Shown: in pieces, positions 3,656 to 48,165 of the stretch | Numbering within the stretch: position 1 is the stretch's first letter | How the letters are laid out: the number at the start of each line of letters is the position of its first letter | Origin: Terriglobus saanensis SP1PR4 | GTDB lineage: Bacteria > Acidobacteriota > Terriglobia > Terriglobales > Acidobacteriaceae | NCBI RefSeq assembly: GCF_000179915.2 | Contig: NC_014963.1 | Location: 4,960,001-5,024,000, forward strand | DNA length: 64,000 nucleotides | Reading direction: 5' to 3' | The notes under the pieces: generated by a model | Seen by the model: the letters and a program-made list of their open reading frames with translations, nothing else | Told to the model about the DNA's origin: nothing | Database searches by the model: none | Translations under genes and position numbers: made by a program

Positions 3656-3731
3656 GGTCGCTCTTCGAGCGAAGGATGCGCTTTGCGCATAGCCCACACA
3701 TCGCAAAGAGCGCGATGTATGGGGCACCCGG
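3656..3731 (+). repeat. Dispersed multi-hairpin repeat, copy 1 (5' half only)
   Basis: Three consecutive stem-loops are visible: CGCTC-ttc-GAGCG (3659-3671), ATGCGC-ttt-GCGCAT (3676-3690) and ACATCGC-aaagagc-GCGATGT (3698-3718). They are followed by the shared end ATGGGGCACCCGG. The first two hairpins recur in copies 2 and 3; the third has a different sequence there but still pairs. Only the 5' half of the element is present. It abuts the vapC remnant. Confidence 0.75.
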
Positions 3732-3768
3732 TATGTAGCTTTCCGGTTTAAAGCTGTAGACAGCAGAA

Positions 3769-3827
3769 GACCGCGGACTCTCCGGGTTCGCATGCGTTGC
3801 GCATGTTCCCCCGCCACATCCGCGGTC
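3769..3827. repeat. Nested inverted repeats downstream of the HU gene
   Basis: GACCGCGGA (3769-3777) pairs with TCCGCGGTC (3819-3827), and a smaller hairpin CATGCG-ttg-CGCATG (3791-3805) lies inside. The position just past the 3' end of the HU gene fits a transcript end or a REP-like structure; no T-run follows on either strand. Confidence 0.4.
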
Positions 3828-3870
3828 GTTCTGGTTGGAGAAAACTCTTCCGCCGAAGCGAGCCCTGGGG

Positions 3871-4167
3871 CTACTTCTTTACGGGAGCGATCGCGTCCTT
3901 GGCTGCCTTGGCAACGCGGAACTTGACGACCGTCTTGGCCTTGATCTTGATGGTCTCGCCGGTCTGGGGGTTACGACCGAGACGAGCCTTGCGCTCCGCC
4001 TTGACGAGCTTTCCGATTCCGGGGATGGTGAACTCACCGTTCTTCTTGGTCTCCTTGACGGCGATCTCAGCGATCGCTTCGAAGAAAGCAGCGCTCTGCT
4101 TGTTGGTGAGTTCGAGCTTCTCTGCCAGTGTGCGGACGAGCGCGGTCTTGGTTATGCCTTTTGCCAT
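3871..4167 (-). CDS. hup: HU family DNA-binding protein, 98 aa
   Basis: The product is a histone-like HU/IHF family nucleoid protein. The ATG at 4167 is preceded by AAAGGAG with seven bases spacing, giving MAKGITKTALV and a 98-residue protein of the usual family length. The DNA-binding arm is clear in GRNPQTGETIKIKAKTV (about residues 64-80), with the Asn-Pro that kinks DNA. The C-terminus is Lys/Ala rich. It acts as a dimer bending DNA in the nucleoid. The longer open frame upstream to 4386 is AT-rich leader sequence and is not coding. Confidence 0.97.
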   Translation of the reverse strand: MAKGITKTALVRTLAEKLELTNKQSAAFFEAIAEIAVKETKKNGEFTIPGIGKLVKAERKARLGRNPQTGETIKIKAKTVVKFRVAKAAKDAIAPVKK

Positions 4168-4281
4168 GGTGTTGCTCCTTTGTCGTAAGTACGAAACTGT
4201 GTGAACCGAGCTTTCCGAACGACGGATGAAAGTGGCGCTTCGCCAGTATTCACGCGGGTGCGGTGAACTGCTCCGAAACCA

Positions 4282-4380
4282 ACGATGCGTCTTTCGCGGC
4301 GCTTTGTCAATGCGAAATCTTCGGGTTTTACCGGTTTTTTTAGGTTTTTCTCGGTTTTCTCTGGAAAAGTGCCTAAAAGG
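4282..4380 (-). promoter_or_regulatory. Candidate HU promoter with upstream A-tracts
   Basis: On the minus strand a TTGACA box lies at 4310-4305, with a weak CATCGT -10 candidate about 17 bases downstream. Immediately upstream are repeated A-runs (AAAACC, AAAAACC, AAAAAAACC, AAAACCC) between about 4320 and 4370. Such runs can act as an UP element or bent DNA. The 0.1 kb leader carries no other gene. Confidence 0.33.
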
Positions 4381-4406
4381 GTTCAAAACTCCCTAATTCA
4401 GAGGAT

Positions 4407-5132
4407 TTAGAAGAAGGTTTTAACGCGAGGTCTGGTTACCAATGGGCTGTTGAGCAGTTCGACCAAGGGCGCCGCCGCGCGGAAACGCGTGATGATTTCC
4501 TGGGCGAGCGTCGGCTCCAACACCGTTTCAGCGGGGAGGGAGACGGAGGCCTCCCACTGGCGACAGCGGAGGAGATCGTCCGCGGGAGAGTCGGGAGCGA
4601 AGCCTTTGGGTGTGCGTGTGAGGGGGTTGCTGTGGAAGTTCGGCATCAGTTTGCGGAGTTTCTTGTCGTCGAGTGCTTTGCGCACGCGGTCGGGATCGTC
4701 CGCGATGAAGCGGCGCAGTTTGAGGAGTTGGTCGCGATCAGGCATATAGATGCCGGAGGCGATGAGCAGTTCTTTCCCGGTGAAGTGGAAGTAGAAGCCG
4801 CCGCCTGAGGTCTTCTCCATGCCGGTGCGCGCCCACCATGCGCCGAGGTTCTCTTTATAGGGGCGTTTGTCGTTGGAGAAGCGGATGTCGCGGTAGATGC
4901 GCATGGCGATCTTATTCGCAGGGCGGAGGTGTGCGGGTGCGAAGTCTTCCATGGCGCGGGTGATGTGTTCGATGAGGGCGAGCATGGGTTGTTGCAGCTC
5001 GGTCACGAAGACGTCCTTGCGCGCGGCGAACCATTCGCGGTCGTTGTTGCGCTTGAGGGCGCGGAGGAAGCGGAGGGCAGAGGGGGTGAAGTGTGGGGCG
5101 GGGGTTTTCGTCGGGGTTCGCTTCGTGGCCAT
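4407..5132 (-). CDS. DUF2461 (TIGR02453) family protein, 241 aa
   Basis: The protein starts MATKRTPTKTPAPHFTPS and continues with the family pattern FLRALKRNNDREWFAARKD. Then come the conserved IYRDIRFSNDKRPYKENLGAW segment and the GGGFYFHF strand at about residues 125-132. It ends VTRPRVKTFF. Length matches the family. The biochemical role of DUF2461 is unknown. The start at 5132 is chosen because the family fold begins just after it; upstream codons belong to an intergenic hairpin repeat. No good ribosome binding site is visible, only an A-rich leader. Confidence 0.9.
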   Translation of the reverse strand: MATKRTPTKTPAPHFTPSALRFLRALKRNNDREWFAARKDVFVTELQQPMLALIEHITRAMEDFAPAHLRPANKIAMRIYRDIRFSNDKRPYKENLGAWWARTGMEKTSGGGFYFHFTGKELLIASGIYMPDRDQLLKLRRFIADDPDRVRKALDDKKLRKLMPNFHSNPLTRTPKGFAPDSPADDLLRCRQWEASVSLPAETVLEPTLAQEIITRFRAAAPLVELLNSPLVTRPRVKTFF

Positions 5133-5182
5133 CGGTTTTAATTTTATGTTGGTTTGGTTGTTCGTGGCTGAACCTAGCGTTT

Positions 5183-5368
5183 GGTCGCTCTTCGAGCGAA
5201 CGATGCGCTTTGCGCATACCCATGTCCCAGAAGCGGGACATGGGGCACCCGGATTTGTAGCGGTTTGAAGGACATGACAAAAGTTCTGGGGTTCCTGAGG
5301 GATCTGGTTTGTGCGCTCCGCGCGACCCCACCCTTCGCGCAAGAGCGCGCGAAGAATGGGGCACGGGT
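5183..5368 (+). repeat. Dispersed multi-hairpin repeat, copy 2 (full length)
   Basis: This is the most complete copy. In order it has CGCTC-ttc-GAGCG, ATGCGC-ttt-GCGCAT, CATGTCCC-agaagc-GGGACATG (5221-5242) and TGGGGCACCCGG. A linker with TTCCTGAGGGATCTGGTTTG follows, then GCGC-tcc-GCGC, GACCCCACCC and a terminal TTCGCGC-aaga-GCGCGCGAA hairpin closed by GAATGGGGCACGGGT. It lies between divergent genes, immediately upstream of the acyltransferase. Confidence 0.85.
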
Positions 5369-5390
5369 TCTGTATGCTGGTTCACACTCT

Positions 5391-6530
5391 ATGAATCGAA
5401 CGCCTGCGTATCTCCAAACGAAAAGTCACTATGAGATTCTGGACGGCCTGCGTGGTGTCGCGGCCTTGATGGTGGTCATGTTTCATACCTTCGAAGCATA
5501 TGCCGATGGCAATCGCTTCAAGCAGATTATGAATCACGGCTACCTTGCGGTGGACTTCTTCTTTCTTCTGTCGGGGTTCGTTGTGGCGTATGCCTACGAC
5601 GACCGCTGGGGGAAGATGACGCAGTGGGATTTTTACAAGCGCCGCCTGGTGCGACTGCAGCCGATGGTGATCATGGGCAATGTGATCGGCGCGGCGCTGT
5701 TTTACTTTCAGGCGTGTCCTATCTTCTCGCTGGTCAGTACGACGCCCGTGCACAAGATGCTGCTGGTGATGCTTGTGGGCTTCACGATGCTTCCGCTGCT
5801 TCCTTCGATGGATATTCGCGGATGGCAGGAGATGCATCCGCTGGATGGGCCCGCGTGGTCGCTCTTCTTTGAGTACATCGCCAATATTCTTTACGGCATT
5901 GGCTTTCGCAAGCTTTCGAACAAGGCGCTTGGCGTCTTCGTTGCGCTGTCAGCGGCGCTACTGATTCATCTCACGGTCTTTGGGACGCAGGGCGATGTGA
6001 TCGGTGGATGGGCTGTCGACAAGACGCAGATGCACATCGGGTTTGCGCGCATGCTTTATCCGTTCTTCGCGGGCATTCTGCTGATGCGGTTGGGAAAACG
6101 GATTCATGTTCCCAACGCATTTACGTGGTGCAGCCTAATGATCGTGGTTATCTTCTGCCTGCCGAGATTCGGAGGTCCGCAGCATCTGTGGAGGAATGGG
6201 CTTTATGAGTCGTTCTGCATTATCGTTCTCTTCCCGATTGTTGTAGCCATGGGCGCGGGCGATCGGATCTCCGGCCCACTGGCCACGAAGCTCTGCAAGT
6301 TCTTTGGAGAGATCTCTTATCCGCTTTACATCACGCACTACCCGTTGATCTACGTCTACACGGCGTGGGTGACGCGCAATAAGATTCCGGCAGCGCAGGG
6401 TGCGGTGTGGGGTGTGGCGCTTCTGCTCACGGCTGTCACGATCGCGTATGCCTGTTTGAAGCTCTACGATGAGCCGGTTCGGGAGTGGCTCAGGAGGCGT
6501 TTTTTAGTGAAGAGCGCGCTCGACTCATAG
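5391..6530 (+). CDS. Acyltransferase 3 family membrane protein, 379 aa
   Basis: This is a membrane-bound O-acyltransferase of the OafA/YrhL type, which acylates cell-surface glycans or lipids using a cytoplasmic acyl donor. The N-terminal motif ILDGLRGVAALMVVMFH carries the expected catalytic His and Arg. LAVDFFFLLSGFVVAYAY and about ten hydrophobic segments follow, ending in ISYPLYITHYPL and a basic tail. The ATG at 5391 starts MNRTPAYLQTKSHYEILDG. The longer open frame from 5181 runs through the hairpin repeat and is rejected. The acceptor cannot be told from sequence. Confidence 0.93.
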   Translation: MNRTPAYLQTKSHYEILDGLRGVAALMVVMFHTFEAYADGNRFKQIMNHGYLAVDFFFLLSGFVVAYAYDDRWGKMTQWDFYKRRLVRLQPMVIMGNVIGAALFYFQACPIFSLVSTTPVHKMLLVMLVGFTMLPLLPSMDIRGWQEMHPLDGPAWSLFFEYIANILYGIGFRKLSNKALGVFVALSAALLIHLTVFGTQGDVIGGWAVDKTQMHIGFARMLYPFFAGILLMRLGKRIHVPNAFTWCSLMIVVIFCLPRFGGPQHLWRNGLYESFCIIVLFPIVVAMGAGDRISGPLATKLCKFFGEISYPLYITHYPLIYVYTAWVTRNKIPAAQGAVWGVALLLTAVTIAYACLKLYDEPVREWLRRRFLVKSALDS

Positions 6531-6627
6531 CTCTACTGGTAGCTCGATGAGCAGAGAGTTTGCGTTCACGCTGCGTTCCTGCGTCTTGGGCGAGTGTTGG
6601 ACCGGATTTAGCTGCGCTCCGATTAAT

Positions 6628-7578
6628 CTAGAAGGCCGCGTGCAGCGGCGACTCTCCACGACGAAGCCGTTCGATATTCTCAGCTACAGCCTTGGCAATC
6701 TCCTCGAACGAAGCTTCTGTCACACCGCCTACGTGCGGTGTCGCGATGACGTTGGGTAGAGTCAGGATTGGGTCATTCGTTGGCAGTGGCTCCTGCCAGA
6801 AGACGTCGAGGCCCGCGCCTGCAAGGTGTCCGCTGGCAAGCTGAGCGTACAGCGCCTCCTGATCGATCAATCCGCCTCGGGCCATATTGATCAGATAGGC
6901 TCCGCGCCTGAGTCCTGCGAGTTCCCGGGCACCGATCATTCCTCGCATGTCTTCGGTATAGCGCATGCAGAGAACGAGGATGTCTGTTTCCGCGAACGCT
7001 CGCTCCCGTTCTTCTTGAGAAAAGCAGCGAGAAAGACCGAACTCGCTTACTTTCGCCGCTGTCGGGTCGCGTGTGATTCCTATCAGATCCACCTCGAAGC
7101 TATGAAGACGCTTGGCGATGGGCAGCGCGATCGCACCCAAGCCGTAGAGACAGACGGTGCGGCCTGCGAGCATCTTGCCAAGCGGTGCTCCAAGCACTCC
7201 CGCACGCACATTCGCATCGGCTTTGGGCAGGTCTCGCAAGAGCGCAAGGATGAGCAGCAGGGCATGTTCCGCAACCGACTCAGCATTGCCTCCCGTCGCG
7301 GGCACATTGGCTACGTAGACGCCTTTCTGTTTCGCACTTTCGAGGTCGATGCCTTCGAGGCCCGCTCCCCATTGTTGAATCAGCCGAAACTGACCGGCTT
7401 CCATCTCCCGCCGACCCATCCGCAGCATCTTTGGGATGACCACGTCGGCCCTGCCTAACTGGGGAAGAACATCTGTTTCAGAACACACGACGATCTCATC
7501 GTTACAGCCGGGAGGAAGATGCTTGCGAAGGTATTCAGGGGCGTCGGGAAAGTTGTTTCCGCAAAAGAGGATTCGCAT
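6628..7578 (-). CDS. D-isomer specific 2-hydroxyacid dehydrogenase, 316 aa
   Basis: This is an NAD(P)-dependent dehydrogenase of the D-2-hydroxyacid family. The Rossmann motif GLGAIALPIAKRL lies at about residues 148-160. The catalytic Arg is in the NMARGGLIDQEAL block, the Glu in VFWQEPLP, and the His in TPHVGGVTEASF (about 285-295). Length is normal. It is divergent from a LysR gene across 186 bases, which suggests LysR control. The substrate cannot be inferred; phosphoglycerate, glyoxylate and hydroxypyruvate reductases all share these motifs. Confidence 0.92.
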   Translation of the reverse strand: MRILFCGNNFPDAPEYLRKHLPPGCNDEIVVCSETDVLPQLGRADVVIPKMLRMGRREMEAGQFRLIQQWGAGLEGIDLESAKQKGVYVANVPATGGNAESVAEHALLLILALLRDLPKADANVRAGVLGAPLGKMLAGRTVCLYGLGAIALPIAKRLHSFEVDLIGITRDPTAAKVSEFGLSRCFSQEERERAFAETDILVLCMRYTEDMRGMIGARELAGLRRGAYLINMARGGLIDQEALYAQLASGHLAGAGLDVFWQEPLPTNDPILTLPNVIATPHVGGVTEASFEEIAKAVAENIERLRRGESPLHAAF

Positions 7579-7730
7579 CTATAGGCCCTTTTCGATTAGG
7601 AGCACGCCTGCGCCGTCGGTGAGGTGATGTGTATATAAAAAGCTCCGCAATGATTTCCGCATCTCGCTCTCTTTTCTGGAACAGCCTGTTCCTTCTTTCA
7701 ACGTAGCGAGAAACATTCATATCGTCCAAT

Positions 7731-7750
7731 ACCTGAATTGACCTGAATTG
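7731..7750. promoter_or_regulatory. Tandem repeat upstream of the LysR gene
   Basis: Two exact head-to-tail copies of ACCTGAATTG occupy 7731-7750, 15 bases before the LysR start. An ATTCA (7726 region) to TGAAT inverted pair overlaps them. This is a plausible LysR-type binding region between the divergent genes, but duplication alone does not prove function. Confidence 0.3.
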
Positions 7751-7764
7751 ATATATTTTCTGGT

Positions 7765-8688
7765 ATGTCTCATTCCATTGAACTTCGCCAGATGCGTTAC
7801 TTTCTCGCCGTCGCGGAGACCCTGCACTTTGGCCGCGCGGCCAGCAAGCTCCGGATTGCTCAACCGAACCTGAGTCTGCAGATTCGAAAGATCGAAGAGG
7901 CACTCGGGCATGCACTCTTTATCCGGACAACACGCGGTGTGACGCTCACAGCAGCCGGAGCCTTTCTTGCGGGGCGAACGGAGGAGTTGCAGACGCGTTT
8001 TGACGACATGCTTCAGGCAGCGCAGCGGATTGGAAAGGGCGAAGAAGGCACGCTCTCGGTGGGCTTCAGCGGCTCCGCCATGTATGGTCCACTTCCATTC
8101 GTGCTTGACCGGTTTCGGCGGCGTTATCCCAAAGTCCGCGTGCAGCTACGGGAGATGTACGCCCCTGAGCAGGTACCGCTCCTGCTCGACGGCACGCTGG
8201 ACGTTGGGTTCATCCGGGATGGAAGTGCGAACGAAGGGCTGCGCATGACTCCGCTTTCGCGAGAGCCTTTTCATGCTGTGTTTCCGCAGTCCCACAGACT
8301 GGCAAAGGAACGAACTCCGCTGGCACCACAGGCACTGAAGGACGAGCAATTCGTCCTCTTTACTCCTCGCATCGCGAAACTCGCCTTTGAAAGGACCCTG
8401 GCTGTCTGTACTACAGCCGGCTTTGCTCCTGAGATTTCGCTGGAAGCACCGCAGTGGGTGACGGCTGTCAGCCTGGTCGCCGCGGGGATGGGCATCTCCA
8501 TCGCGCCAGCGAGTGTTGCCCGTTTGAATATTCCCGGCGCGGTGTTTCGACCTCTGCGCTCCAAGGCATGGTCGTCTATCGATCTTTGGACTGAGAAGAC
8601 GATGCGCAACCCTGCAGCGACTCAGCTCCTTGCCATCGCAAAAGAGGAGTATGCCAAGAACCCCATGATTGCTCTCACCAAGAAGTAA
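7765..8688 (+). CDS. LysR-type transcriptional regulator, 307 aa
   Basis: The N-terminal winged helix-turn-helix is canonical: LRQMRYFLAVAETLHFGRAASKL followed by QPNLSLQIRKIEEALGHALF (residues about 6-48). An effector-binding periplasmic-protein-like domain starts near residue 95 (LSVGFSGSAMYGPLP). Length is typical. It is divergently paired with the 2-hydroxyacid dehydrogenase, so control of that gene and of itself is the likely role. The co-inducer is unknown. Confidence 0.95.
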   Translation: MSHSIELRQMRYFLAVAETLHFGRAASKLRIAQPNLSLQIRKIEEALGHALFIRTTRGVTLTAAGAFLAGRTEELQTRFDDMLQAAQRIGKGEEGTLSVGFSGSAMYGPLPFVLDRFRRRYPKVRVQLREMYAPEQVPLLLDGTLDVGFIRDGSANEGLRMTPLSREPFHAVFPQSHRLAKERTPLAPQALKDEQFVLFTPRIAKLAFERTLAVCTTAGFAPEISLEAPQWVTAVSLVAAGMGISIAPASVARLNIPGAVFRPLRSKAWSSIDLWTEKTMRNPAATQLLAIAKEEYAKNPMIALTKK

Positions 8689-8727
8689 CGACCACCGCGC
8701 TTCTCAGAGGGCGGATATCCACGGCAA

Positions 8728-9861
8728 TTATTCGACGGGCTGGTGGTTGGTGAAGAAATTAACCAGACTCTGAGGAGCGTCGGGGCCGAGACACACCTTG
8801 AGAATGCCTTCCGCGTCCGCGGCTTCGGACGCGCTGCGGGGGAAGAGGTCTGCTTCATACACGAGGAGCGCGGCTTCCACGTCGCCGGGGTTAGCGGCGA
8901 TGGCCTTCGCGAGTTCAGCGCCGTCGAACATGGCGAGGTTGGCTCCTTCACCGGAGGGGATCATCAGGTGCGCCGCATCGCCGAGCAGTGTCACGCCGGG
9001 GACGCGGTCCCAACGGTGCTCGACCGGGAGCGCATGAATTGAGCGCGGCACAGGGGCCGTCTCACCGTCGGTGATGAGCGCTGTCAGCTCCGGGGCCCAG
9101 CCGCCGAACTCCTCGGCGACCCTGGCCAGGGCAGTCTTCGGGTCAGAGAAGTCGATGCTGCCTATCCAATCCTTTGGCTTGTTCAACTGCACGTAGGTGT
9201 GCAGCACTCCGTTGGGCTCGCGGTGCGCGAAGATGCCTTTTCCTGGGGCTGGCGCAAACATCGCACCACCGCCCACTGCCTGCGCGCTCGGCTTGTGACG
9301 GGTGTCTGTGTCCAGCAGGTACGTCTCGATAAAGGACGTGCCGGTATAGGCCGGTTGCGCTTCGGAGAGAAGCGGACGAACGCGCGACCAGGCACCGTCG
9401 GCACCCACGAGGAGGTCAGTCGTCACCGTGGAGCCGTCCGTAAAGGTCAACGTGTGCTGGCTGTTGCCAAGCGGGGATACTGCTGTGAGTTTGTGTCCCC
9501 AGCGGACCGTGCCGGAAGGAAGTGAGTCAAGCAGAATCCGGCGAAGCTCTCCTCGGGGTACTTCGGGTCGACCGCCTGTGCCGTCGTCGAAATCTTCAAA
9601 GAGGACGTTGCCGTGTTTGTCGAGTACACGCGTTGCCTGACCGCCAGGGTGGATGATCGCGAGGAACTCTTCGAAGAGTCCTGCTGCCCGCAGTGCGAGC
9701 TGCCCGTTGTTTTCGTGGATATCGAGCATGCCTCCCTGCGCGCGCGCGTCTGCCGAGGCTTCCGCTTCGTAGACCGTGGCTGCGATGCCGTGCACGTGGA
9801 GGACGCGGGCAAGTGTGAGGCCGCCGAGACCGGCACCGATGATTGCGATTGGAGTATTCAT
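8728..9861 (-). CDS. FAD-dependent monooxygenase, TetX-like, 377 aa
   Basis: This is a class A flavoprotein monooxygenase. It has an N-terminal dinucleotide site GAGLGGLTLARVLHVHG (about residues 9-25). The DG motif VGADGAWSRVRPLLSE is at about 150 and the GD motif TLLGDAAHLMIPSGEGANLAM at about 295-315. The order and spacing resemble TetX-type tetracycline-inactivating enzymes, but substrate residues cannot be judged by eye, so other small aromatic substrates are possible. Its start overlaps the stop of the upstream monooxygenase gene by four bases (ATGA). The two are therefore co-translated under the divergent TetR. Confidence 0.92.
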   Translation of the reverse strand: MNTPIAIIGAGLGGLTLARVLHVHGIAATVYEAEASADARAQGGMLDIHENNGQLALRAAGLFEEFLAIIHPGGQATRVLDKHGNVLFEDFDDGTGGRPEVPRGELRRILLDSLPSGTVRWGHKLTAVSPLGNSQHTLTFTDGSTVTTDLLVGADGAWSRVRPLLSEAQPAYTGTSFIETYLLDTDTRHKPSAQAVGGGAMFAPAPGKGIFAHREPNGVLHTYVQLNKPKDWIGSIDFSDPKTALARVAEEFGGWAPELTALITDGETAPVPRSIHALPVEHRWDRVPGVTLLGDAAHLMIPSGEGANLAMFDGAELAKAIAANPGDVEAALLVYEADLFPRSASEAADAEGILKVCLGPDAPQSLVNFFTNHQPVE

Positions 9862-13428: not shown

Positions 13429-14586
13429 CTAGTCTGGAAAGTAGATCGTGATGGAACCGGCATCGGCATTAGCTGTAAGGATTGCGTTTCGCGGACCGGC
13501 AGTAAGGCGCGCGATAGAAACGGATCCCCAGCCACCAGCAATAGGCGAGGCCGTGGAGGTAAACCTTCCAGCCGCACTCCGGTGGTAGATTTGCATCGTT
13601 CGGCTCTCCGCGCAGGCGACCACGATTGACTGGGTTCCGTCGCCTGTAAGGTCTCCAGCGGCGACGCTGTTGGGACCGCGGCACTCTGCCAAAGGAAGTG
13701 GTGAACCGGGCGCAGGATGGAGCCCACCGTGGCCGTCACCGAGCAGGATGGAGATGGCATTCTCAGTCGGACCGGTAATATCGCGCTGATATGGGATGAC
13801 GATGAGATCCGGGTTGCCGTCGCCGTTGAGGTCATCAATGGCAACCTGCCACGGTTTGGCGCCCGCAGGGAACGGTGAACCAGCGGCGCTCTGCAGGCCT
13901 CCCCGGCCATCGCCAAGCAGGATAGAGACGGTATTGTCGTCAAGATTGGTAGTGACGATGTCCGGGTTGCCATCGTGGTTGAAGTCGGCAGTACGGAGGC
14001 GTTCATAGGGGCGGCGGCCTGTGGGGAAGTATTTGCCCGCCGTAACAAGACGTCCCATACCGTCACCTCGGACAACTTCAATCCGATTGCTTCCCCAACT
14101 GTCTGTGGCGACGTCGAGATTGTGATCGGAGTTGAAGTCGGCAACGACAACGCCATGGGGATGCGGGTCAGAGTGGACGTCGACAGGCGATCCGGGCGCG
14201 AGATGAAAGCCTCCACGGCCATCGCCGAGAAAGACGCGCAAATAGGGCGACTGGTGATTGGCGATGACTAGATCGAGATTCCCGTCGTTGTTCATGTCAC
14301 CGATGGCGACGTCGTTGGGTAGATGACCGGCGGGAAAAGATGAACCGGCCGCTAGATGAAAGCCTCCCCGACCGTCGCCGAGCAACACGGTGATGGTGCC
14401 GGAGTCGGTGTTGTCCGAGCCGGCGTTGGCGACGACGATGTCTAGATTGCGATCATGATTGACGTCAGCGATGGCGATCCACCGGGGGCTCGGTCCAGTG
14501 GAAATCGTGACCTGATGAAAGCTCTGACCGTGCGCCGCCAGGCTGCTGGCGACGAGGATCAACGCGAATTGAGTTGAATTGCGCAT
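13429..14586 (-). CDS. Secreted FG-GAP/VCBS repeat propeller protein, 385 aa
   Basis: A signal peptide (MRNSTQFALILVASSLAAHGQ) is followed by about seven FG-GAP type repeats. Each has a Ca-binding DxNxDGxxD-like loop (ADVNHDRNLD, GDMNNDGNLD, ADFNHDGNPD, DDLNGDGNPD) and an LLGDGRGGFHxAxGSPFPAG strand pair. The repeats should fold into a single beta-propeller. Proteins of this kind are exported and bind ligands or surfaces; a specific partner cannot be named. No anchoring or sorting signal is present at the C-terminus. Confidence 0.9.
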   Translation of the reverse strand: MRNSTQFALILVASSLAAHGQSFHQVTISTGPSPRWIAIADVNHDRNLDIVVANAGSDNTDSGTITVLLGDGRGGFHLAAGSSFPAGHLPNDVAIGDMNNDGNLDLVIANHQSPYLRVFLGDGRGGFHLAPGSPVDVHSDPHPHGVVVADFNSDHNLDVATDSWGSNRIEVVRGDGMGRLVTAGKYFPTGRRPYERLRTADFNHDGNPDIVTTNLDDNTVSILLGDGRGGLQSAAGSPFPAGAKPWQVAIDDLNGDGNPDLIVIPYQRDITGPTENAISILLGDGHGGLHPAPGSPLPLAECRGPNSVAAGDLTGDGTQSIVVACAESRTMQIYHRSAAGRFTSTASPIAGGWGSVSIARLTAGPRNAILTANADAGSITIYFPD

Positions 14587-25327: not shown

Positions 25328-25447
25328 GAAATCCCTCGAACGCTTGGATGCGGAGGGTGGAGGGCGGGATCGCCTGCAACGAAACTCAGATTATTCGCGC
25401 ACACTGCGTTCGTTCAGAAGGAGCGTTTCCCGGGTTTGAAGAAACAG

Positions 25448-25482
25448 CAGATCCCTTCGCTTCGCTGCGGGATGACAAAGTA
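25448..25482 (+). repeat. Short dispersed repeat B, copy 1
   Basis: CAGCAGATCCC, TTCGCTTCGCTGC and GGGATGACAAAG form a unit also found, inverted, at 45487-45524 and 48002-48032. The ends GATC...GATGAC are conserved while the middle varies. It lies in the otherwise gene-free space between the uvrA and KaiC-like genes. Confidence 0.5.
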
Positions 25483-30196: not shown

Positions 30197-30784
30197 ATGA
30201 TTGAAGAAATCTTTATGGTCGAAAATCCTCCACTCAACAGGACCATTGACTTCGGAGGCGGGACGATTCAGCTTGGGGCACAATGCGTAGGTGCTGTTCT
30301 TGTGTGGGCGAAGAAAGTTCTTCGAGGAGATGACATTAATTTAACCGATCCAAGCAATAGTGAGTCGTTAAATGCCTCTGTAGCCGCCAGAGCACAGCAA
30401 GGTCGACAAATCCAGCAACTCGGAGCGCAACAAGCTCAGCAGGACGCGTTCTACACCATCAGAGGGGGCCTCACATTTACAGGGCTTTCTTTAGGAATTG
30501 AACGTTATGTTCATCTTCAGGGCCACCAAATTTTGGTTTCAATCGCCACTCACGCGCCTTCCAACAAGGTGTACATTCTTGTTCTTCGAGAACCGGTGGT
30601 AAATGGCCGGGCCCCAGGACACGCCGTCGGCGTTTACAAAGCAGCTGCGAATTCTTTTTATTTTTTCAATCCAAATACTGCTTTGTACCGATGTTCTTCG
30701 GCTCAGGAATTCTTAGTTCAGGCAAACCAGGAACTTGGTGCCTATCTCAATGGTTTCGGGGTTGGTACTTCTCTTCACCTCTAA
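30197..30784 (+). CDS. YopT/C58-like papain-fold cysteine protease, 195 aa
   Basis: AAAGGAG eight bases before the ATG at 30197 fixes the start. Cys30 lies at the head of a helix (AQCVGAVLVWAKKVL). His142 begins a strand in APGHAVGVYKA, and Asn158/Asn160 follow in FYFFNPNTALYRC. This Cys-His-Asn/Asp order, with a short strand-turn and a final helix (AQEFLVQANQEL), is that of clan CA papain-like enzymes of the C58 family (YopT, AvrPphB). In those, FxDPN-type turns carry the third residue. Residues 55-85 are Gln/Ala-rich helix. There is no signal peptide. GC is lower than the surroundings, which suggests transfer. Activity and target are inference. Confidence 0.72.
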   Translation: MIEEIFMVENPPLNRTIDFGGGTIQLGAQCVGAVLVWAKKVLRGDDINLTDPSNSESLNASVAARAQQGRQIQQLGAQQAQQDAFYTIRGGLTFTGLSLGIERYVHLQGHQILVSIATHAPSNKVYILVLREPVVNGRAPGHAVGVYKAAANSFYFFNPNTALYRCSSAQEFLVQANQELGAYLNGFGVGTSLHL

Positions 30785-30857: not shown

Positions 30858-31012
30858 GGATCGCTCTTCGAGCGAACGATGCGCTTTGCGCATCCCATGT
30901 CCCAGAAGCGGGACATGGGGCACCCGGTTTGGGTTTCCTGAGGGATCAGGTTTATGCGCTCTGCGCGACCCCACCCTTTCGCGATGAAGCTGCGAAAGAA
31001 TGGGGCACGGGT
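30858..31012 (+). repeat. Dispersed multi-hairpin repeat, copy 3 (full length)
   Basis: It has the same order as copy 2: CGCTC-ttc-GAGCG, ATGCGC-ttt-GCGCAT, CATGTCCC-agaagc-GGGACATG, TTTCCTGAGGGATCAGG, GCGC-tct-GCGC, then TTTCGC-gatgaagct-GCGAAA and GAATGGGGCACGGGT. The rest of the 480-base gap to 31264 holds no other feature I can support. Confidence 0.85.
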
Positions 31013-33380: not shown

Positions 33381-33498
33381 GGACAGATCTGGTTTGTGCG
33401 CTCCGCGCGACCCCACCCTTTCCCACCCCAGCGAACAAAAAGACGTTCGCCGGGAACCCCGGTTTCGCAATAAAGCTGCGAAAGAATGGGACACCCGT
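33381..33498 (+). repeat. Dispersed multi-hairpin repeat, copy 4 (3' half, variant centre)
   Basis: GGACAGATCTGGTTTGTGCGC opens it, then GACCCCACCC, the variant centre GCGAAC-aaaaagac-GTTCGC (33431-33450), TTTCGC-aataaagct-GCGAAA and GAATGGGACACCCGT. The centre pairs as in copy 5, but with a different terminal base pair (G-C here, A-T there). Confidence 0.8.
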
Positions 33499-38710: not shown

Positions 38711-38830
38711 CGGACAGATCAGGTTTGTGCGCTCTGCGCGACCCCACCCTATCCACCCCAACGAACAAAAAGCCGTTCGTCGGGGACCCCGGTTTCACCG
38801 GTAAAGCTGCCGAAAGAATGAGGCACGGGT
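38711..38830 (+). repeat. Dispersed multi-hairpin repeat, copy 5 (3' half, variant centre)
   Basis: CGGACAGATCAGGTTTGTGCGC, GACCCCACCC, the centre ACGAAC-aaaaagcc-GTTCGT (38761-38780), then a weaker last stem and GAATGAGGCACGGGT. Part of another unit (AAAGCGGTTCACACG) precedes it at 38650. The A-T closing pair here replaces the G-C pair of copy 4. Confidence 0.8.
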
Positions 38831-38833
38831 GAA

Positions 38834-41408: not shown

Positions 41409-41423
41409 GTCCGGTTGCGGTGC

Positions 41424-41460
41424 CCCACGCTCGTCATGCGGGCGTGGGGTATTTTCTTTG
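41424..41460 (+). terminator. Rho-independent terminator after the Gfo/Idh/MocA gene
   Basis: CCCCACGC (41424-41431) pairs with GCGTGGGG (41443-41450), followed at once by TATTTTCTTT. It also separates this gene from the convergent vapC. Confidence 0.82.
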
Positions 41461-41474
41461 GGACGGGGATATGG

Positions 41475-42172: not shown

Positions 42173-42181
42173 AGGATATGA

Positions 42182-42556: not shown

Positions 42557-42577
42557 GCGGTGTCTCCTTTGTTCGAG

Positions 42578-43264
42578 CTAGGCTTCGTGCCAGTTCATTC
42601 CACTGGGAAGTGTGACGTTTGCATAGTCGAAGTGAAGCACGCGGCGGTGGCCGGAAATGGAAGACGCCGAGGATGCGTGGAAGAGGAGCGGGCGCATAAT
42701 CAGCGCTCCGCCCGCAGGCACGGGACAAATGTGCTCCGCGGACTCGGCTGCCAGCAACTCAACATCGCGCACAGCGATCTTACCGCCCTTGTGCGAGACC
42801 GGGATGACGCGTAATGCGCCGTTCTCGATAGGGCAATCGTCGAGGTGCACGCGCACACTGAGCATTCCCTCCATCACAGAGGACGGCGGCTGTACATGGA
42901 GTACACCTTCCTTCATCGACCATGGGCCGAAGCCTTCCGCTTCAACGCGCTCCTTAACCGCGATGGTCACGTCCTGATGCCACGGAACCTTCCAGTTCGT
43001 GCTCTCGGTCTTATCAAAGAGGATGCCCCGGACTACGGTTGCAGTTGGGCCGAGTACAGGTTCAACGAGGCCAATGAGGGTATCGCTGTTTGCAAGTTCC
43101 CGCATTGACGGAAAGTCGAGGAGATTGCGCAGACCTCCACGACGATCCGCAGAAGAGTCCTGCCATGACCCAACTTCACGAAGCAAGGCTTCGACCGTCA
43201 TAGGAAGTAAGACCTCTTCCACGACAGCGAAGCCCTGTTCGTCGATCTCGGTTGCGAGTGACAT
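42578..43264 (-). CDS. Phytanoyl-CoA dioxygenase family protein, 228 aa
   Basis: Fe(II)/2-oxoglutarate oxygenase of the PhyH type: KVPWHQDVTIAVKERVE has the HxD metal pair, and GGALIMRPLLFHASSAS the distal His, with Arg following. A VRVHLDDCPIENGALRVIPVSHKGG strand-loop fills the jelly roll. It begins two bases after the thrS stop, so thrS and this gene share a transcript. Substrate unknown; many relatives hydroxylate small acids or halogenated compounds. Confidence 0.92.
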   Translation of the reverse strand: MSLATEIDEQGFAVVEEVLLPMTVEALLREVGSWQDSSADRRGGLRNLLDFPSMRELANSDTLIGLVEPVLGPTATVVRGILFDKTESTNWKVPWHQDVTIAVKERVEAEGFGPWSMKEGVLHVQPPSSVMEGMLSVRVHLDDCPIENGALRVIPVSHKGGKIAVRDVELLAAESAEHICPVPAGGALIMRPLLFHASSASSISGHRRVLHFDYANVTLPSGMNWHEA

Positions 43265-43266
43265 GG

Positions 43267-45297
43267 TTACAGCGTCGCAGCCTTCGTTTCCAACAGGTTC
43301 TTTGCGCGGGCGAGGAAGTCCGCCAGCGGGGTGGAGCCTTCGTCGCCCTTGCCGCGTGTGCGGACGGAGACGGCTTTGGCTTCGGCTTCCTTGTCGCCCA
43401 TGATGAGGACGAAGGGGACCTTTTGCAGTGTGAGGTCGCGGATCTTTGCGTTCATCTTTTCGTTGCGGGCGTCGAGCGTCACGCGAAGGCCGATGGCTTC
43501 CAATTCTTTCTTTACCGTTTCAGCGTAGGCGGTGTGCTTTTCGCTGATGGGGACGAGGCCGATCTGGATGGGTGCGAGCCAGAGCGGGAAGGCTCCCGCG
43601 TAGTGCTCGATCAGCACGCCGAAGAAGCGTTCCACGGAGCCGAAGAGGGCGCGGTGGACCATGACGGGCTGGTGCTTCTCACCGTCTTCCCCCGTGTATT
43701 CCAGTTCGAAGCGCCGGGGCAGGTTGAAGTCGAACTGCACCGTGGAGAGCTGCCAGAGGCGGCCGAGGACATCGACGAGTTTGACGTCGATCTTCGGACC
43801 GTAGAAGGCCGCTTCGCCGGGGATCTCCTTGTAGGGAATGTTCTTGCGATTCAGAGCGGTCTTCAGGCCGTTGACGGCGAGCTCCCAGTCCTTCGGGTCG
43901 CCGACGTAGTGCTTCGCGTCGTTCGGGTCCCAGGTGGAAAGCTCCACCTTGAACTCGTTGAAGCCGAATTTGTGCAGGACTTCTTCAGCAAACTCGACGC
44001 AGGCGACGACCTCGTCTTCGATCTGCGCGGGCGTGCAGAAGATGTGCGCATCGTCCTGCGTAAAGCCGCGGACGCGAAGCAGGCCGTGCATGGTGCCGGA
44101 GCGCTCGTAGCGGTAGACGTTGCCGAGTTCGGCGTAGCGTACGGGAAGGTCGCGGTAGCTCTTCGGCGAGTTCTTGTAGATGAGGATGTGGCCCGGGCAG
44201 TTCATGGGCTTCAGGCGATACTCCGCGTCGTCCAGCTCCATGGGAGCGTACATGTTCTGACCGTAGAAGCCTTCGTGGCCGCTGATCTGCCAGAGCTCGC
44301 GGCGCATGACGTGCGGCGTCACGACGAGGTCGTAGCCACGGCGCAGGCACTCGTCGCGCATCCAGTCTTCCATGGTCTTGCGGATGATCGCGCCGTTGGG
44401 ATGCCAGAAGATAAGGCCCGAACCGGCGAGCTCCTGGATGGAGAAGAGGTCGAGCTGTTTGCCCAGGACACGGTGATCGCGAGCCTTGATCTCTTCCAGA
44501 TGCTTGAAATGCGCGTCGAGGTCCTTCTGGTTGTAGAAGGCGGTTCCGTAGACGCGCTGGAGCTGCGGGTTCTTCTCGTCGCCGAGCCAGTAAGCTCCTG
44601 CGATCGTGGTGACCTTGTAGGCCTTCACGCGGCCAGTGGAAGGGACGTGCGGTCCACGGCAGAAGTCGGTGAAGGCGCCGTTTTTGTAGAGCGAGACCTC
44701 TTCGCCGGGATGTGTGAACTTTTCGATGAAGTGCTGCTTCATGAACTCGCCGTGCGCGGCATAGTCGGCCAGCGCCTGCTCGCGCGGCTCGTAGGAGCGA
44801 AGAAAGGGCTCGTCACGCTTGACGACGTCGGCCATGCGTTGCTCGATGGCGGCGAGATCGTCGGGCGTGAAGGGCTTCTCGCGATAGATGTCGTAGAAGA
44901 AACCGTTGTCGGTTGCGGGGCCGTGGCCGAGCTTCACTTCGGGGTAGAGCTCTGTGATGGCGGTCGCCATGACGTGCGCGGCGGAGTGGCGCAGGACCTT
45001 GAGCGCGTCGGGGTCAGACTCCTTGAGGAGTTCGAGCGAGACGTCTTCGGTGAGCGGCTGACGCAGGTCGACGATCTTCTCTGCCGCCGTGTTGTCGGCG
45101 GCGTACATGGCGTCTTCGCTAGTCGTCTCGTCCGTGGTGCTGGCAGGGGGGGCGGCATGCAGTGCCTTGATGCGGGCGACGACGACGACTGCGGCGAGGC
45201 GAGGCGAGATGCTGGTCGCGATGTCGAGGGGCGTGGTGCCGGAGGGGACTTCGCGGATACTGCCGTCGGGGAGGTGGATCTTGATCTGTTCGCTCAC
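43267..45297 (-). CDS. thrS: Threonyl-tRNA synthetase, 676 aa
   Basis: Class II synthetase in full length: an N-terminal TGS domain (MSEQIKIHLPDGSIREVPSG), then the editing domain with LRHSAAHVMATAITELYPEV and the second HxxxH. The catalytic core with PMNCPGHILIYK and RYERSGTMHGLLRVRGFTQDDAHIF (motif 2) follows, then motif 3 GSVERFFGVLIEHY and an anticodon-binding C-terminus. A GTG starts the gene. It lies first in a minus-strand run of five closely packed genes. It should be essential. Confidence 0.98.
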   Translation of the reverse strand: MSEQIKIHLPDGSIREVPSGTTPLDIATSISPRLAAVVVVARIKALHAAPPASTTDETTSEDAMYAADNTAAEKIVDLRQPLTEDVSLELLKESDPDALKVLRHSAAHVMATAITELYPEVKLGHGPATDNGFFYDIYREKPFTPDDLAAIEQRMADVVKRDEPFLRSYEPREQALADYAAHGEFMKQHFIEKFTHPGEEVSLYKNGAFTDFCRGPHVPSTGRVKAYKVTTIAGAYWLGDEKNPQLQRVYGTAFYNQKDLDAHFKHLEEIKARDHRVLGKQLDLFSIQELAGSGLIFWHPNGAIIRKTMEDWMRDECLRRGYDLVVTPHVMRRELWQISGHEGFYGQNMYAPMELDDAEYRLKPMNCPGHILIYKNSPKSYRDLPVRYAELGNVYRYERSGTMHGLLRVRGFTQDDAHIFCTPAQIEDEVVACVEFAEEVLHKFGFNEFKVELSTWDPNDAKHYVGDPKDWELAVNGLKTALNRKNIPYKEIPGEAAFYGPKIDVKLVDVLGRLWQLSTVQFDFNLPRRFELEYTGEDGEKHQPVMVHRALFGSVERFFGVLIEHYAGAFPLWLAPIQIGLVPISEKHTAYAETVKKELEAIGLRVTLDARNEKMNAKIRDLTLQKVPFVLIMGDKEAEAKAVSVRTRGKGDEGSTPLADFLARAKNLLETKAATL

Positions 45298-45385
45298 CCT
45301 TACAGGATATGGTGTGGGCGACGGGGGAGTCGAGTGGGGTGGGGAAACGCTGGGGTTTGCTACGTGCAGGAGGACAAAAAGGAGG

Positions 45386-45460
45386 GGCTTCCTGAGGGAT
45401 CAGGTTTGTGCGCTCCGCGCGACCCCAACCTTTCGCAAAGGGCGCGAAAGAATGGGGCAC
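45386..45460 (+). repeat. Dispersed multi-hairpin repeat, copy 6 (3' half)
   Basis: GGGCTTCCTGAGGGATCAGG, GCGC-tcc-GCGC, GACCCCAACC, then TTTCGC-aaagggc-GCGAAA and GAATGGGGCAC. A partial 5' unit (ACATCGC-aaagagc-GCGATGT with ATGGGGCACCCG) follows separately at 45551-45589. Together with repeat B at 45487 they fill the 327-base gap between the thrS and propeller genes. Confidence 0.8.
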
Positions 45461-45486
45461 AGATGCTTCACCCGACCGACAACTTT

Positions 45487-45524
45487 TTTGTCATCCCGTA
45501 ACGGAATAGAGAGATCTGCTTTTC
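45487..45524 (-). repeat. Short dispersed repeat B, copy 2
   Basis: TTTGTCATCCCG, TAACGG and AGAGATCTGCTTT are the inverse of the repeat B unit at 25448, with a different centre. It lies between two pieces of the multi-hairpin element. Confidence 0.45.
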
Positions 45525-45550
45525 AAAGCGGTTCGCGCCTGACGCGAATG

Positions 45551-45589
45551 CCCACACATCGCAAAGAGCGCGATGTATGGGGCACCCGA
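45551..45589 (+). repeat. Partial 5' unit of the multi-hairpin repeat
   Basis: Contains ACATCGC-aaagagc-GCGATGT and ATGGGGCACCCG, identical to the central hairpin of copy 1 (3698-3731), but lacks the two hairpins that precede it there. Confidence 0.7.
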
Positions 45590-45624
45590 CTTTGTGGTTC
45601 TTTGAAGTTTGAAGGACGCGGATC

Positions 45625-46704
45625 TCAGTGGATCGCGAGGAGGCCGAAGTTGCTGATGTTGAAGGCCGAAGCTGTGTCCAGGATGGCTGGAGTGACGTCT
45701 CCGGTGGCGGTGGGGGCGAAGGCGGCGAGTTCAAAGAAGCTGTTGAACGCGCCGAAGACCCCAACGGTATAGATGTTGCCGACGGAATCGACCTCCACAC
45801 CGCCTAGCCCCTGATTTGCTCCAAGCGTGGCGCCTCCAACGGTCTTGATGGGGGCGACGTTGCCGGTGGCTCCCGCGGCGAATTCGGCGACCACGCCGAA
45901 GTTTCCGGTGGGATCGGCGGAGGAGACATAGATGTTGTTGCTGGCGTCGAGAGCGACGCCGTTCGCCGGGAATACCAGTCCCGTGGCGGGTCCGCTAATG
46001 GTGCTCGCGGGCGCGACGTTGCCCGTCGCGGTGGGCGAGAAGACCGAAATGCCGAGTTGGACCAGGTCGGAGACGTAGAGGTTGCCGGCCGTATCCACTG
46101 CGAGCGAGAGCGGTTGATTGAGCAGCGTGGCCGCTCCGGTGATCGTCCGCGTCGGGATGGAAACTCCGTTGGCTTTGGGGTCGAAGACGAAGATGGAAGA
46201 CGGGTTGGAGAGATTGGAGAGGCTGTTGGACGGAGCGTCCGAGACATAGATGCTTCCAGCGCTATCCACGGTAATGCCGATGGGAAAGATGAGCGACGTG
46301 GAGGTGATGGTGCGCATGGGTGTGGCGGCCCCTGTCGCGTTGGCGTCGTAGACAAGGATCTCTGAAACCGAAGTGGTGGTGCTGACGGCGGTGACGTAGA
46401 CGTTTCCTGTGCTATCGGTGGCGACGCCGCTAAGGAAGAAGCCCGCGGGTCCGGTGATGCTGGTGGCGGGCGCAACAATCCCGTTTGTGGCGGTGCTGAA
46501 CTTCAAGATGGAGTCTGAGGCAGTGGCTACGTTGAGCGTATTGTTCTGCACGACCACGATATTCGCCGCGCCTCCCGCAACCAGAGGTGTCGGGGGTGTG
46601 GCAGGTGTGGTCGATCCGATACCGTTGTTGGAGCTGTTACCGCAACCAGACAGGAGAGTCAGGCCGACCAGGATCGTGCCCGCACAGATTAAAGATCGCT
46701 TCAT
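45625..46704 (-). CDS. Lipoprotein with NHL-like propeller repeats, 359 aa
   Basis: A lipobox ends the signal peptide (LVGLTLLSGCGNSSN, lipidation at Cys21). Five or six propeller blades follow, each with the pattern GxxxDSxGNxYVxDxxxxxxxVF. Examples are GVATDSTGNVYVTAV, LAVDTAGNLYVSDLV and VEVDSVGNIYTVG. The composition is Thr/Ala-rich, as often seen in acidobacterial NHL-type secreted proteins. It is probably a surface-anchored binding or scaffold protein. No catalytic motif is visible. Confidence 0.87.
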   Translation of the reverse strand: MKRSLICAGTILVGLTLLSGCGNSSNNGIGSTTPATPPTPLVAGGAANIVVVQNNTLNVATASDSILKFSTATNGIVAPATSITGPAGFFLSGVATDSTGNVYVTAVSTTTSVSEILVYDANATGAATPMRTITSTSLIFPIGITVDSAGSIYVSDAPSNSLSNLSNPSSIFVFDPKANGVSIPTRTITGAATLLNQPLSLAVDTAGNLYVSDLVQLGISVFSPTATGNVAPASTISGPATGLVFPANGVALDASNNIYVSSADPTGNFGVVAEFAAGATGNVAPIKTVGGATLGANQGLGGVEVDSVGNIYTVGVFGAFNSFFELAAFAPTATGDVTPAILDTASAFNISNFGLLAIH

Positions 46705-46822
46705 GGTGTCCTCGCATCTTTTCGGACACGGCTTTTTAGCTTTTGATGCGGCAGTCTGAGAGAAATTAAAGGGAACTGTAAGTATTCAGGCACAGATAGC
46801 GACGCACTTATACAAAAGGATC

Positions 46823-47995
46823 ATGGTGACCAAAATGGGATTGAAGGTAAGCGATCTGGCACCGCGTGCGTTGCAAAGCGAGATCCGTGCGATGACGGCG
46901 GAGTGCCAGCGGATGGGTGGGGTGAACCTGGCTCAGGGCGTCTGCGACACCGACCCCCCGGAGGTCGTTCTGCGCGAAGCGAAGGCGGCGATGGATGCGG
47001 GCTTCAACCAGTACACGCGGATGGAGGGGATTGAGCGGCTGCGTGTGGCGGTGGCGGCGGAGGTCTCCGCGCGGCATGGCTTAGGCGTGGATCCCGAAGG
47101 CGAGGTGCTGATTACGAGTGGGGCGACGGGCGCCTTTCACGCAACGGCGATGGCCCTGCTGAACCCCGGCGACGAGGTGATCGTCTTCGAGCCGTTCTAT
47201 GGCTACCATCCGGGGACGCTACGTGCCCTGCGCATGGTGCCGGTCGTTGTTTCTCTTACAGGAGACGACTGGGCTTTGGATATTGACGCGATGCGAGCAG
47301 CGGTTACAGAAAGAACGCGGGCGGTGCTGATCAATACGCCGGGCAATCCTTCCGGGAAGATCTTTTCCCTTGCGGAGCTGGAGGCCGTTGCGACCCTCGC
47401 ACTGGAGCACAACCTCTTTGTCTTTACAGATGAGATCTACGAGCACTTTACCTATGGCAAACGGCCGCATATCCCGATGCGGACGCTACCGGGGATGCGC
47501 GAGCGCACGATCACGATGAGTGGCTACTCCAAGACGTACAGCGTGACGGGGTGGCGCATTGGAACAGTAGTTGCGGATGCGCGATGGACGCCTTCGATCA
47601 GCTACTTCCATGACATGACGTACGTCTGTGCTCCTGCGCCTTTGCAGCATGGCGTAGCTGCGGGGTTGGAGACGCTGGATGCCGGTTTTTATAAAGGGCT
47701 GGCGACGGAGCATCTTTCCAAGCGCACGATGCTGGTGGAGGCGCTGCTCGATGCAGGGTTGACGCCGCATCTGCCGGAGGGCGCGTACTACATCCTCGCC
47801 GACGTCTCGCGTCTGCCAGGGGAAACGGCTTCAGAGAAAGCGCGATGGCTGCTGCGCGAAACGGGTGTTGCCGGGGTGGCGGGGAGTGCGTTCTTTCGTC
47901 CCGGTGGAGGCGAGGGGTTGATGCGGTTTTGTTTTGCGAAGAAGGATGCGGAGTTGAAGGAAGCCTGTGAACGGTTGGGTGCGCTTCGCGGGTAA
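46823..47995 (+). CDS. Fold-type I PLP-dependent aminotransferase, 390 aa
   Basis: Class I/II aminotransferase: VNLAQGVCDTDPPE near the N-terminus, then ITSGATGAFHATAMAL, INTPGNPSGKIFS, TDEIYEHFTYG and SGYSKTYSVTGWRIG with the PLP-binding Lys. The C-terminus has LMRFCFAKKD with the carboxylate-binding Arg. It resembles kynurenine/methionine (KAT/YbdL-like) aminotransferases; the amino donor is uncertain. ATG at 46823 has AAAGGA close by; GTG at 46826 gives better spacing and cannot be excluded. Confidence 0.94.
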   Translation: MVTKMGLKVSDLAPRALQSEIRAMTAECQRMGGVNLAQGVCDTDPPEVVLREAKAAMDAGFNQYTRMEGIERLRVAVAAEVSARHGLGVDPEGEVLITSGATGAFHATAMALLNPGDEVIVFEPFYGYHPGTLRALRMVPVVVSLTGDDWALDIDAMRAAVTERTRAVLINTPGNPSGKIFSLAELEAVATLALEHNLFVFTDEIYEHFTYGKRPHIPMRTLPGMRERTITMSGYSKTYSVTGWRIGTVVADARWTPSISYFHDMTYVCAPAPLQHGVAAGLETLDAGFYKGLATEHLSKRTMLVEALLDAGLTPHLPEGAYYILADVSRLPGETASEKARWLLRETGVAGVAGSAFFRPGGGEGLMRFCFAKKDAELKEACERLGALRG

Positions 47996-48001
47996 CTCTA
48001 C

Positions 48002-48032
48002 TTTGTCATCTCGTAGCGTAGATCTGCTTTTC
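48002..48032 (-). repeat. Short dispersed repeat B, copy 3
   Basis: TTTGTCATCTCG, TAGCG and TAGATCTGCTTT follow the same arrangement as the other two copies, here immediately before copy 7 of the multi-hairpin element. Confidence 0.45.
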
Positions 48033-48045
48033 GGGTTTTCCGCTG

Positions 48046-48165
48046 GGTCGCTCTTCGAGCGATGGATGGGGCACCCGGCACCCGATCTTAGTTTCCTGAT
48101 GGATTTGGTTTGTGCGCCCTGCGCGACCCCACCCTTTCGCGATGAAGCCGCAAAGAATGGGGCAC
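48046..48165 (+). repeat. Dispersed multi-hairpin repeat, copy 7 (internal hairpins lost)
   Basis: CGCTC-ttc-GAGCG leads directly into ATGGGGCACCCGG, so the second and third hairpins of copies 2 and 3 are missing. Then come TTTCCTGATGGATTTGG, GCGC-cct-GCGC, GACCCCACCC, TTTCGC-gatgaagcc-GCAAAG and AATGGGGCAC. It lies between convergent genes. Confidence 0.82.

Follow-up and report, generated by a model that had tools for sequence, protein, structure and literature searches.

Our analysis of a 64,000-nucleotide stretch of the Terriglobus saanensis SP1PR4 genome (contig NC_014963.1, positions 4,960,001 to 5,024,000; hereafter the window) indicates that the hairpins dispersed through it are, in all likelihood, repetitive extragenic palindromes (REPs) belonging to a system of the REP-associated tyrosine transposase (RAYT, or TnpAREP). 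The initial annotation had described these hairpins as seven copies or partial copies of a single element with a covarying centre. Judged from the sequences, this "covarying centre" is a RAYT-specific REP stem that changes with the enzyme while the foot on which it stands is fixed. The copy numbers, the identity of the RAYT, the inverted flanks of its gene, the conservation of the foot, the paired changes in the stem and the border of the element are all read from DNA and protein sequences; movement of the hairpins, a single-strand mechanism, a guiding role for the foot and any present activity are what we infer from them.

When the window was re-examined, all seven cited copies and partial copies were found where they had been placed, with the blocks ascribed to them. 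However, the blocks do not make up a single element, since they belong to two units, A and B, each of which is also found alone. Read on the minus strand, A has the form CGGGTGC-CCCA-stem-loop-stem-TGGG, that is, a foot GGGTGC-CCCA and a variable hairpin, commonly followed by the mini-hairpins GCGC-NNN-GCGC and CGCTC-gaa-GAGCG. B, read in the same way in 107 copies, has the form GTGC-CCCATTC-TTTCGC-loop-GCGAAA-GGG-TGGGG-T-CGCGC-rga-GCGCAC, starting with its GTGC foot and ending in a terminal mini-hairpin that closes with GCAC. The main stems of A are TACATCG and TGTCCC; in the genome DNA examined, the TACATCG group has 34 copies (28 exact) and the TGTCC group 22 (19 of them TGTCCCG). The foot strand of the seven cited copies is the minus strand of the window, all in one orientation, and genome-wide the two orientations of B number 66 and 58. 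In the 5.095-Mb genome (5,095,226 bases in one contig) the B core GCGCGACCCCACCC occurs 124 times with at most one mismatch, compared with 3 for the reversed pattern, and the A core TGGGGCACCCG 58 times, again compared with 3. The listed B sites comprise 98 exact ones and two of the 26 with one mismatch, and the copy-level analyses leave aside three site regions near 5.045, 5.054 and 5.064 Mb. By rough gene calling, 150 of 163 A and B copies are intergenic, a count that leaves out 4 sites lying at segment edges and 22 further sites of GTGCCCCA, of which 16 are intergenic and 6 fall within genes. The hairpins thus have the high copy number and extragenic location of RAYT-associated REPs, and their form, a palindrome of roughly 20–40 nt that carries a conserved foot on one side, is that of a REP.

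Among the possibilities raised earlier was a REP-like mobile unit with no transposase in sight. The REP-like unit is supported; transposase genes do exist, outside the window. A Y1_Tnp search of the genome gave two genes, L031 at about 399 kb and L032 at about 465 kb. L031 lies between inverted B-type hairpins (37 nt, 97% identical), and L032, which is open, lies between inverted A-type hairpins (35 nt, identical), so that both of the two Y1 genes show the arrangement of a RAYT flanked by two inverted copies of a palindrome. The L032 protein scores 92.9 bits against the NCBIfam family NF047646 (REP_Tyr_transpos; cut-off 80), and its match to E. coli TnpAREP (PDB 4er8) has E = 4.4e-11; membership of the RAYT family is indicated by NF047646 scores of 92.9, 104.3 and 94 bits for the proteins P0001, P0002 and P0003. 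H61-x-H63 and Y116 are invariant in 12 sequences of the clade, and Y116 would, by the published Y motif, be the catalytic tyrosine. The genome does not hold the several near-identical tnpA copies of an IS200/IS605 element, its two Y1 genes being different and present once each.

Repeats and enzyme are linked in relatives as well. As relatives we took the best 80 of 522 from named genomes, 79 of the 80 being acidobacterial by title. In 68 of these best 80 an inverted repeat is shared between the gene flanks (blastn, E ≤ 0.01), and in 51 of the 68 it has GTGCC. A scan of 184 flanks at 92 loci found a GTGCC-footed hairpin in 128, with at least one such flank at 80 of the 92 loci and both at 48, while ten other feet gave 2 to 17. 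The hairpin score takes the best pairing, so it is these control feet that carry the claim, and one of them, GTGGC (17), may include genuine variant feet. The scan stood at 131 of 188 before the duplicates L205 (the same as L174) and L254 (the same as L185) were removed, and it omits 16 of the 30 loci L171–L200, among them non-clade or fragmentary loci as well as L177 and L199 (both the gene of L201). At 31 Y1 loci outside the clade (two genes entered twice), a GTGCC-footed hairpin was found in 5 of 62 flanks. The GGGTGCCCC foot is therefore kept across a RAYT clade that lies nearly entirely in the Acidobacteriota, while the stems change on both sides. Within the genus Terriglobus alone, one foot is combined with the stems GGTCCC, TGTCCGG, CGTCTC, CCCTCG and others, several of them seen on one side only. 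Among 43 different arm pairs the stem nearly always opens with CCC; at each of positions 4–9 there are three to five kinds of pair, with pairing in 39–43 of the 43, and arms crossed between stems pair less well than true partners (2.59 versus 4.81 of 5 positions). Moreover, stem class follows the RAYT tree: it changes 26 times, where 1000 shuffles averaged 45.2 changes and never gave fewer than 39. This comparison used 62 rows and 13 classes: 86 of the 92 proteins were long enough, 84 remained after removal of duplicates, 72 were labelled, and classes seen once were dropped. Hence the swapped centres are not one covarying RNA, as had been proposed, but stem classes that track different RAYT transposases.

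Four stems were counted in 19 Terriglobus genomes, each combination of genome and stem being one cell. In the 11 cells where a RAYT carries the stem in question there are 3–41 copies beyond the two flanks; of the 65 cells without one, 45 hold no copies and a few hold up to 44. Stem copies are thus commoner where a RAYT carries that stem (Mann-Whitney p = 1.7e-7, ignoring relatedness), with the RAYT cells including a fragment (G008, CCCTCG) and one-flank calls (G011, G014, G018), and with G001, which has fragments only, counted among those without. Repeats can evidently persist where no matching RAYT is found, through loss, missing contigs or cross-mobilisation. The B core showed no visible enrichment over the reversed control in 60 relatives; longer alignments find B copies in G009.

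How are the modules placed with respect to genes and to each other? B lies in convergent gaps in 53 of its 97 placed copies, compared with a convergent share of about 32% of gap bases, and in divergent gaps in 9 of 97, compared with a share of about 23%. In tandem gaps the B foot strand is the gene strand in 25 of 35 cases. Such a distribution could arise if the hairpins were transcript-end elements, selected mainly as terminators or as protectors of mRNA 3′ ends, with the RAYT link secondary. We regard this as improbable, since A has no convergent excess (18 of 51 placed copies), a terminator scan of 30–49 kb called only the relic at 41419 (19 in total versus 17.6 in shuffles), and neither the conserved foot nor the flanks of the RAYT genes nor the junction triplet described below would be explained. 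In addition, according to the text of PMC3733652, REPs are mostly found downstream of genes anyway. Of the 39 close pairs of modules, 30 have B followed by A when read from the foot, in one orientation, and 18 of those 30 are spaced at 83–88 nt; only 7 of the 39 are inverted, three of these being B-B at 176–180 nt. Two inverted REPs acting as one unit, the arrangement of a REP doublet forming a hairpin (REPIN), are thus not what the modules form here. Along the contig, B is dense at 4.5–5.0 Mb and 0–0.5 Mb (24 and 17 of the 98 exact sites) and sparse at 2.5–4.0 Mb (9).

The paired changes within the genome could be followed in the 97 of 107 B copies and the 53 of 56 A copies that were parsed. 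Stem cells are paired in 96.9% of cases in B, against at most 87.5% in 1000 shuffles, and in 99.2% in A, against at most 86.8%; changes on both sides affect 65 cells in B and 98 in A, against shuffle maxima of 33 and 63. On these two of three measures the paired changes exceed the shuffles, and on the third, the number of extra pair types, they do not. The counts are of copies rather than events; two stem families are present in A, and in B a single paired insertion or deletion is in some cases scored at more than one position. Run lengths in the two arms of the B stem also go together (T3/A3 in 69 copies, T2/A2 in 11, unequal in 5, out of 85 of the 107 copies parsed). On the foot strand, mispairs are G-T rather than A-C by 188 to 6 in B and 45 to 2 in A, largely inherited in common, and because they are hardly ever A-C there, the fold of the foot strand seems to be the one that is kept. 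Six folds of four copies, computed with DNA parameters, gave z values of −1.7 to −6.6 relative to shuffles. The proposal of selection on structure is supported, in that pairing is kept beyond shuffles and, among relatives, the various stems that stand on the one foot each pair. The direct compensatory change on which that proposal drew is present as well, as G33431/C33450 in the copy at 33381 and A38761/T38780 in the copy at 38711. However, the centre of these two copies is an extra hairpin (CCCCA-RCGAAC..GTTCGY) within B, of a type present in further B copies of the genome, and not an alternative centre of A. Similarly, the alternative centres do pair, but not in every copy, since that at 48046 is without a REP stem and cannot pair there. 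Most of the folds being better than shuffles, the paired changes and the wobbles on one strand would also suit a structured RNA, small or cis-regulatory, present in many copies. This explanation is more doubtful still than that of transcript ends: an Rfam scan of the window gave no match at gathering scores, the stems swap wholesale with transposase lineage, and folded single-stranded DNA predicts one-strand wobbles equally. A structured-RNA or transcript-end function may nonetheless exist as a secondary role.

The border of the B module is sharp. To the left of the foot the information is at most 0.11 bits from −4 to −15, and positions −3 to −1 are all pyrimidine in 84 of 107 copies, compared with 14.5% of intergenic triplets. 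This pyrimidine triplet looks like a target or cleavage preference. The text of PMC8266576 has TnpAREP cleaving at CT, and in one system also at CA, with the foot helping to choose the site; extrapolating from it, one would expect GTGC to prefer GC or GA, which is no plain match to the pyrimidines. Least probable of all, and barely credible in our view, is that the hairpins are miniature inverted-repeat transposable elements mobilised by some unrelated DDE transposase, or else what is left of a single old duplication. They are indeed dispersed, short and non-coding, and B has the ends GTGC and GCAC. Yet the repeats are carried by both Y1 genes (no search was made for DDE genes), the low information from −4 outward argues against a segmental duplication, and the sharp left border and preferred junction make it unlikely that the copies are decay products of one duplication, a finding that the initial annotation had named as one that would refute its reading.

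Each module of this RAYT system is a short hairpin whose 5′ foot, GTGC, is conserved and whose stem goes with one transposase lineage. In the model we propose, the RAYT, an HUH/Y1 enzyme, would recognise foot and stem together on single-stranded DNA, cleave beside the hairpin and join the hairpin elsewhere, mostly between genes, with B being joined next to a short pyrimidine run. Stem and enzyme would drift together, so that the stems would be altered through paired changes and the foot left as it is.

A number of observations weigh against this assignment. The foot is GTGC, and not the GTAG or GT[AG]G of the GTAG REP superfamily. L031 is a broken gene: the protein of its initial part (P0004) scores 57.1 bits, below the cut-off of 80, and the part containing HNPVKRGLV is in another frame. 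In the DNA examined, the TGTCCGG stem at the flanks of L032 was seen only there, while the dispersed copies have TGTCCCG or TACATCG, and no RAYT with a TACATCG stem was found in this genome. Among the loci omitted from the flank scan, two moderate matches to the clade, L187 (129.7 bits) and L188 (87.3 bits), had no foot near the gene. Six of the 19 Terriglobus genomes are without a clade match (E ≤ 1e-10), yet four of them hold 38–77 foot sites, and G015, with weak clade matches only, holds 163. Within the T. saanensis genome, the extra pair types are not above shuffles (9 in B, where the shuffles reach 9, and 11 in A, where they average 11.9), one of the six folds is weak (the z of −1.7), the folding energies of A do not favour the foot strand (−23.0 versus −23.9 for the other strand), and the 98 exact B sites show no strand bias between the contig halves (p = 0.31, with the halves assumed to be replichores and the origin unchecked). 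Finally, no insertion event was seen: the single empty-site attempt, made in the nearest relative G009, gave none, with the query split over two contigs, one starting just after the element and the other showing no foot motif beside the gene within the 1.5 kb examined.

REPs and their transposases have been described in other bacteria, and as presented in the texts of PMC2817692 and PMC6006769, the REPtrons of E. coli and Stenotrophomonas share with the system described here a Y1 gene between inverted hairpins, many intergenic copies and a foot 5′ of the stem; the same texts have REPs coevolving with their enzyme. The foot itself differs, being GTGC here and GTAG or GTGG there. GGGTGCC does occur in two Stenotrophomonas REPs given in PMC2817692, where it follows a GTGG head and forms part of the stem, whereas here GTGC lies outside the A stem. 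The positions that contact GTAG in the E. coli enzyme are given in PMC6006769 as W94, Q95, E100, H101 and R104. At these positions the 12 clade proteins have W in 12 of 12, Q, L, M or H at Q95, D in 12 of 12 at E100, F in 10 of 12 at H101 and no R at R104; the contacts of the E. coli C-terminal tail described in PMC8266576 lie outside the clade alignment. Bacterial interspersed mosaic elements and REPINs, as described in PMC2817692 and PMC3116915, also have modules at fixed spacing, although the close pairs here are mostly B-then-A and seldom inverted, and B, with its GTGC foot and GCAC end, resembles the "double foot" REPs of PMC6006769.

Two earlier surveys also describe systems close to the present one. 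The feet described in the text of Quentin et al. 2018 (PMC6006769) are GT[AG]G and CnGA. Its class 3 TnpAY1 is partly acidobacterial and has atypical hairpins in high copy number, as here, but with a CnGA foot and the Y motif YV..EQ against GTGC and YxHxNP; subclass 2.6 also has atypical hairpins and is mostly from Bacteroidetes. None of the motif sets in Table 1 of that paper is exactly EHVH / W / YxHxNP, a weak distinction, as the 4er8 TnpAREP also has EHMH, and GTGC does not appear in the text consulted (Table S1 aside). Di Nocera et al. 2013 (PMC3733652) list in their Acidobacteria group a T. saanensis TIRYT (the transposase associated with terminal inverted repeats, TIRs), tsa 392, which by gene number is probably the L032 gene. 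In the text of that survey TIRtrons are likewise flanked by inverted repeats, and TIRs are treated as unrelated to REPs. The GGGGCAC found here does not fit its TIR motif GGGGWSAS, and neither GGGTGC, GGGGCAC, GTGCCC nor GTGC itself occurs in the text consulted (Figure 9 and the additional files aside). As far as these texts go, the GTGC foot differs from the feet described in the REP/RAYT literature.

Within the window there are eleven exact TGGGGCAC/GTGCCCCA matches, of which that at 30274 has no hairpin by eye and may be chance. On the minus strand, A modules with the TACATCG stem lie at 3656..3731 (mini-hairpins at 3659–3671 and 3675–3690, then the REP hairpin with its GTGC foot ending at 3727) and at 45550..45588 (with a different adjoining mini-hairpin, TTCGCG..CGCGAA). 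Those with the TGTCCC stem lie on the same strand at 5183..5252 (mini-hairpins at 5186–5198 and 5202–5217, REP hairpin together with its foot at 5219–5248) and 30859..30927 (mini-hairpins at 30862–30874 and 30878–30893, REP hairpin together with its foot at 30894–30923), as does a truncated A module at 48046..48077, in which the REP stem is lost and the first mini-hairpin (48049–48061) adjoins the foot TGGGGCAC (48067–48074). The minus-strand B modules occupy 5311..5364 (GTGC foot at 5364–5361, a stem with T-G wobbles, the mini-hairpin and the GCAC end at 5311), 30954..31008, 45408..45460 and 48112..48165. Two more, also on the minus strand, contain the inserted second hairpin: one at 33396..33494, with the insert at 33426–33462 and the foot altered to GTGTCCCA, and one at 38727..38826, with the same type of insert at 38756–38792, the closing pair A38761-T38780 and the foot altered to GTGCCTCA. 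On the plus strand, in the opposite orientation and between convergent genes, a relic or related REP hairpin (GTGCCCCACGCTCG..GGGCGTGGGG, 41419..41453) had been overlooked in the initial annotation.

A third dispersed palindrome, GCAGATCCC..GGGATGACAAA, is found at 25443–25480, 45487–45523 and 47999–48021 of the window; it has 42 matches in 418 kb of the genome, 17 of which sit 75–89 nt past a B foot, the usual place of A. Coding repeats at 13703–14470, several of them spaced 153 bp (families D3 and D6), perhaps belong to a repeat protein. Other Terriglobus Y1 genes (L034–L041, L052, L181, L183, L189 and L190) are flanked by different double hairpins (for example GCGGGCTGAAGGCCCGC and GGCTTTAGCCGCTGAGG), with GTGCCCC not seen at their flanks, and are further RAYT/REP lineages. 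Two genes of G008, L033 and L049, match Y1_Tnp strongly, at 157 and 156 bits, and no inverted repeat was found in their flanks; they are possibly true IS200-type copies.

REP/RAYT systems as such are known; what is new here, figures and supplements of earlier surveys aside, is the GTGC foot and its link to dispersed repeats. More generally, we lean towards the view that the Acidobacteriota have a RAYT/REP lineage of their own, in which the foot switched to GGGTGC-CCC along with changes at the guide contacts, and enzyme and stem diversified together into dozens of pairs. If this is true, some acidobacterial "TIRtrons" would be REPtrons that use another foot. Tests of REP recognition have, according to the text of PMC8266576, used GTAG feet in three proteobacterial systems, and another natural foot together with dozens of enzyme-stem pairs would make both the foot's choice of cleavage site and the residues that read the stem open to test. 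For Terriglobus, the finding would account for many of its repeated intergenic hairpins, and it would tie these repeats to transposases that the 2013 survey separated from REPs.

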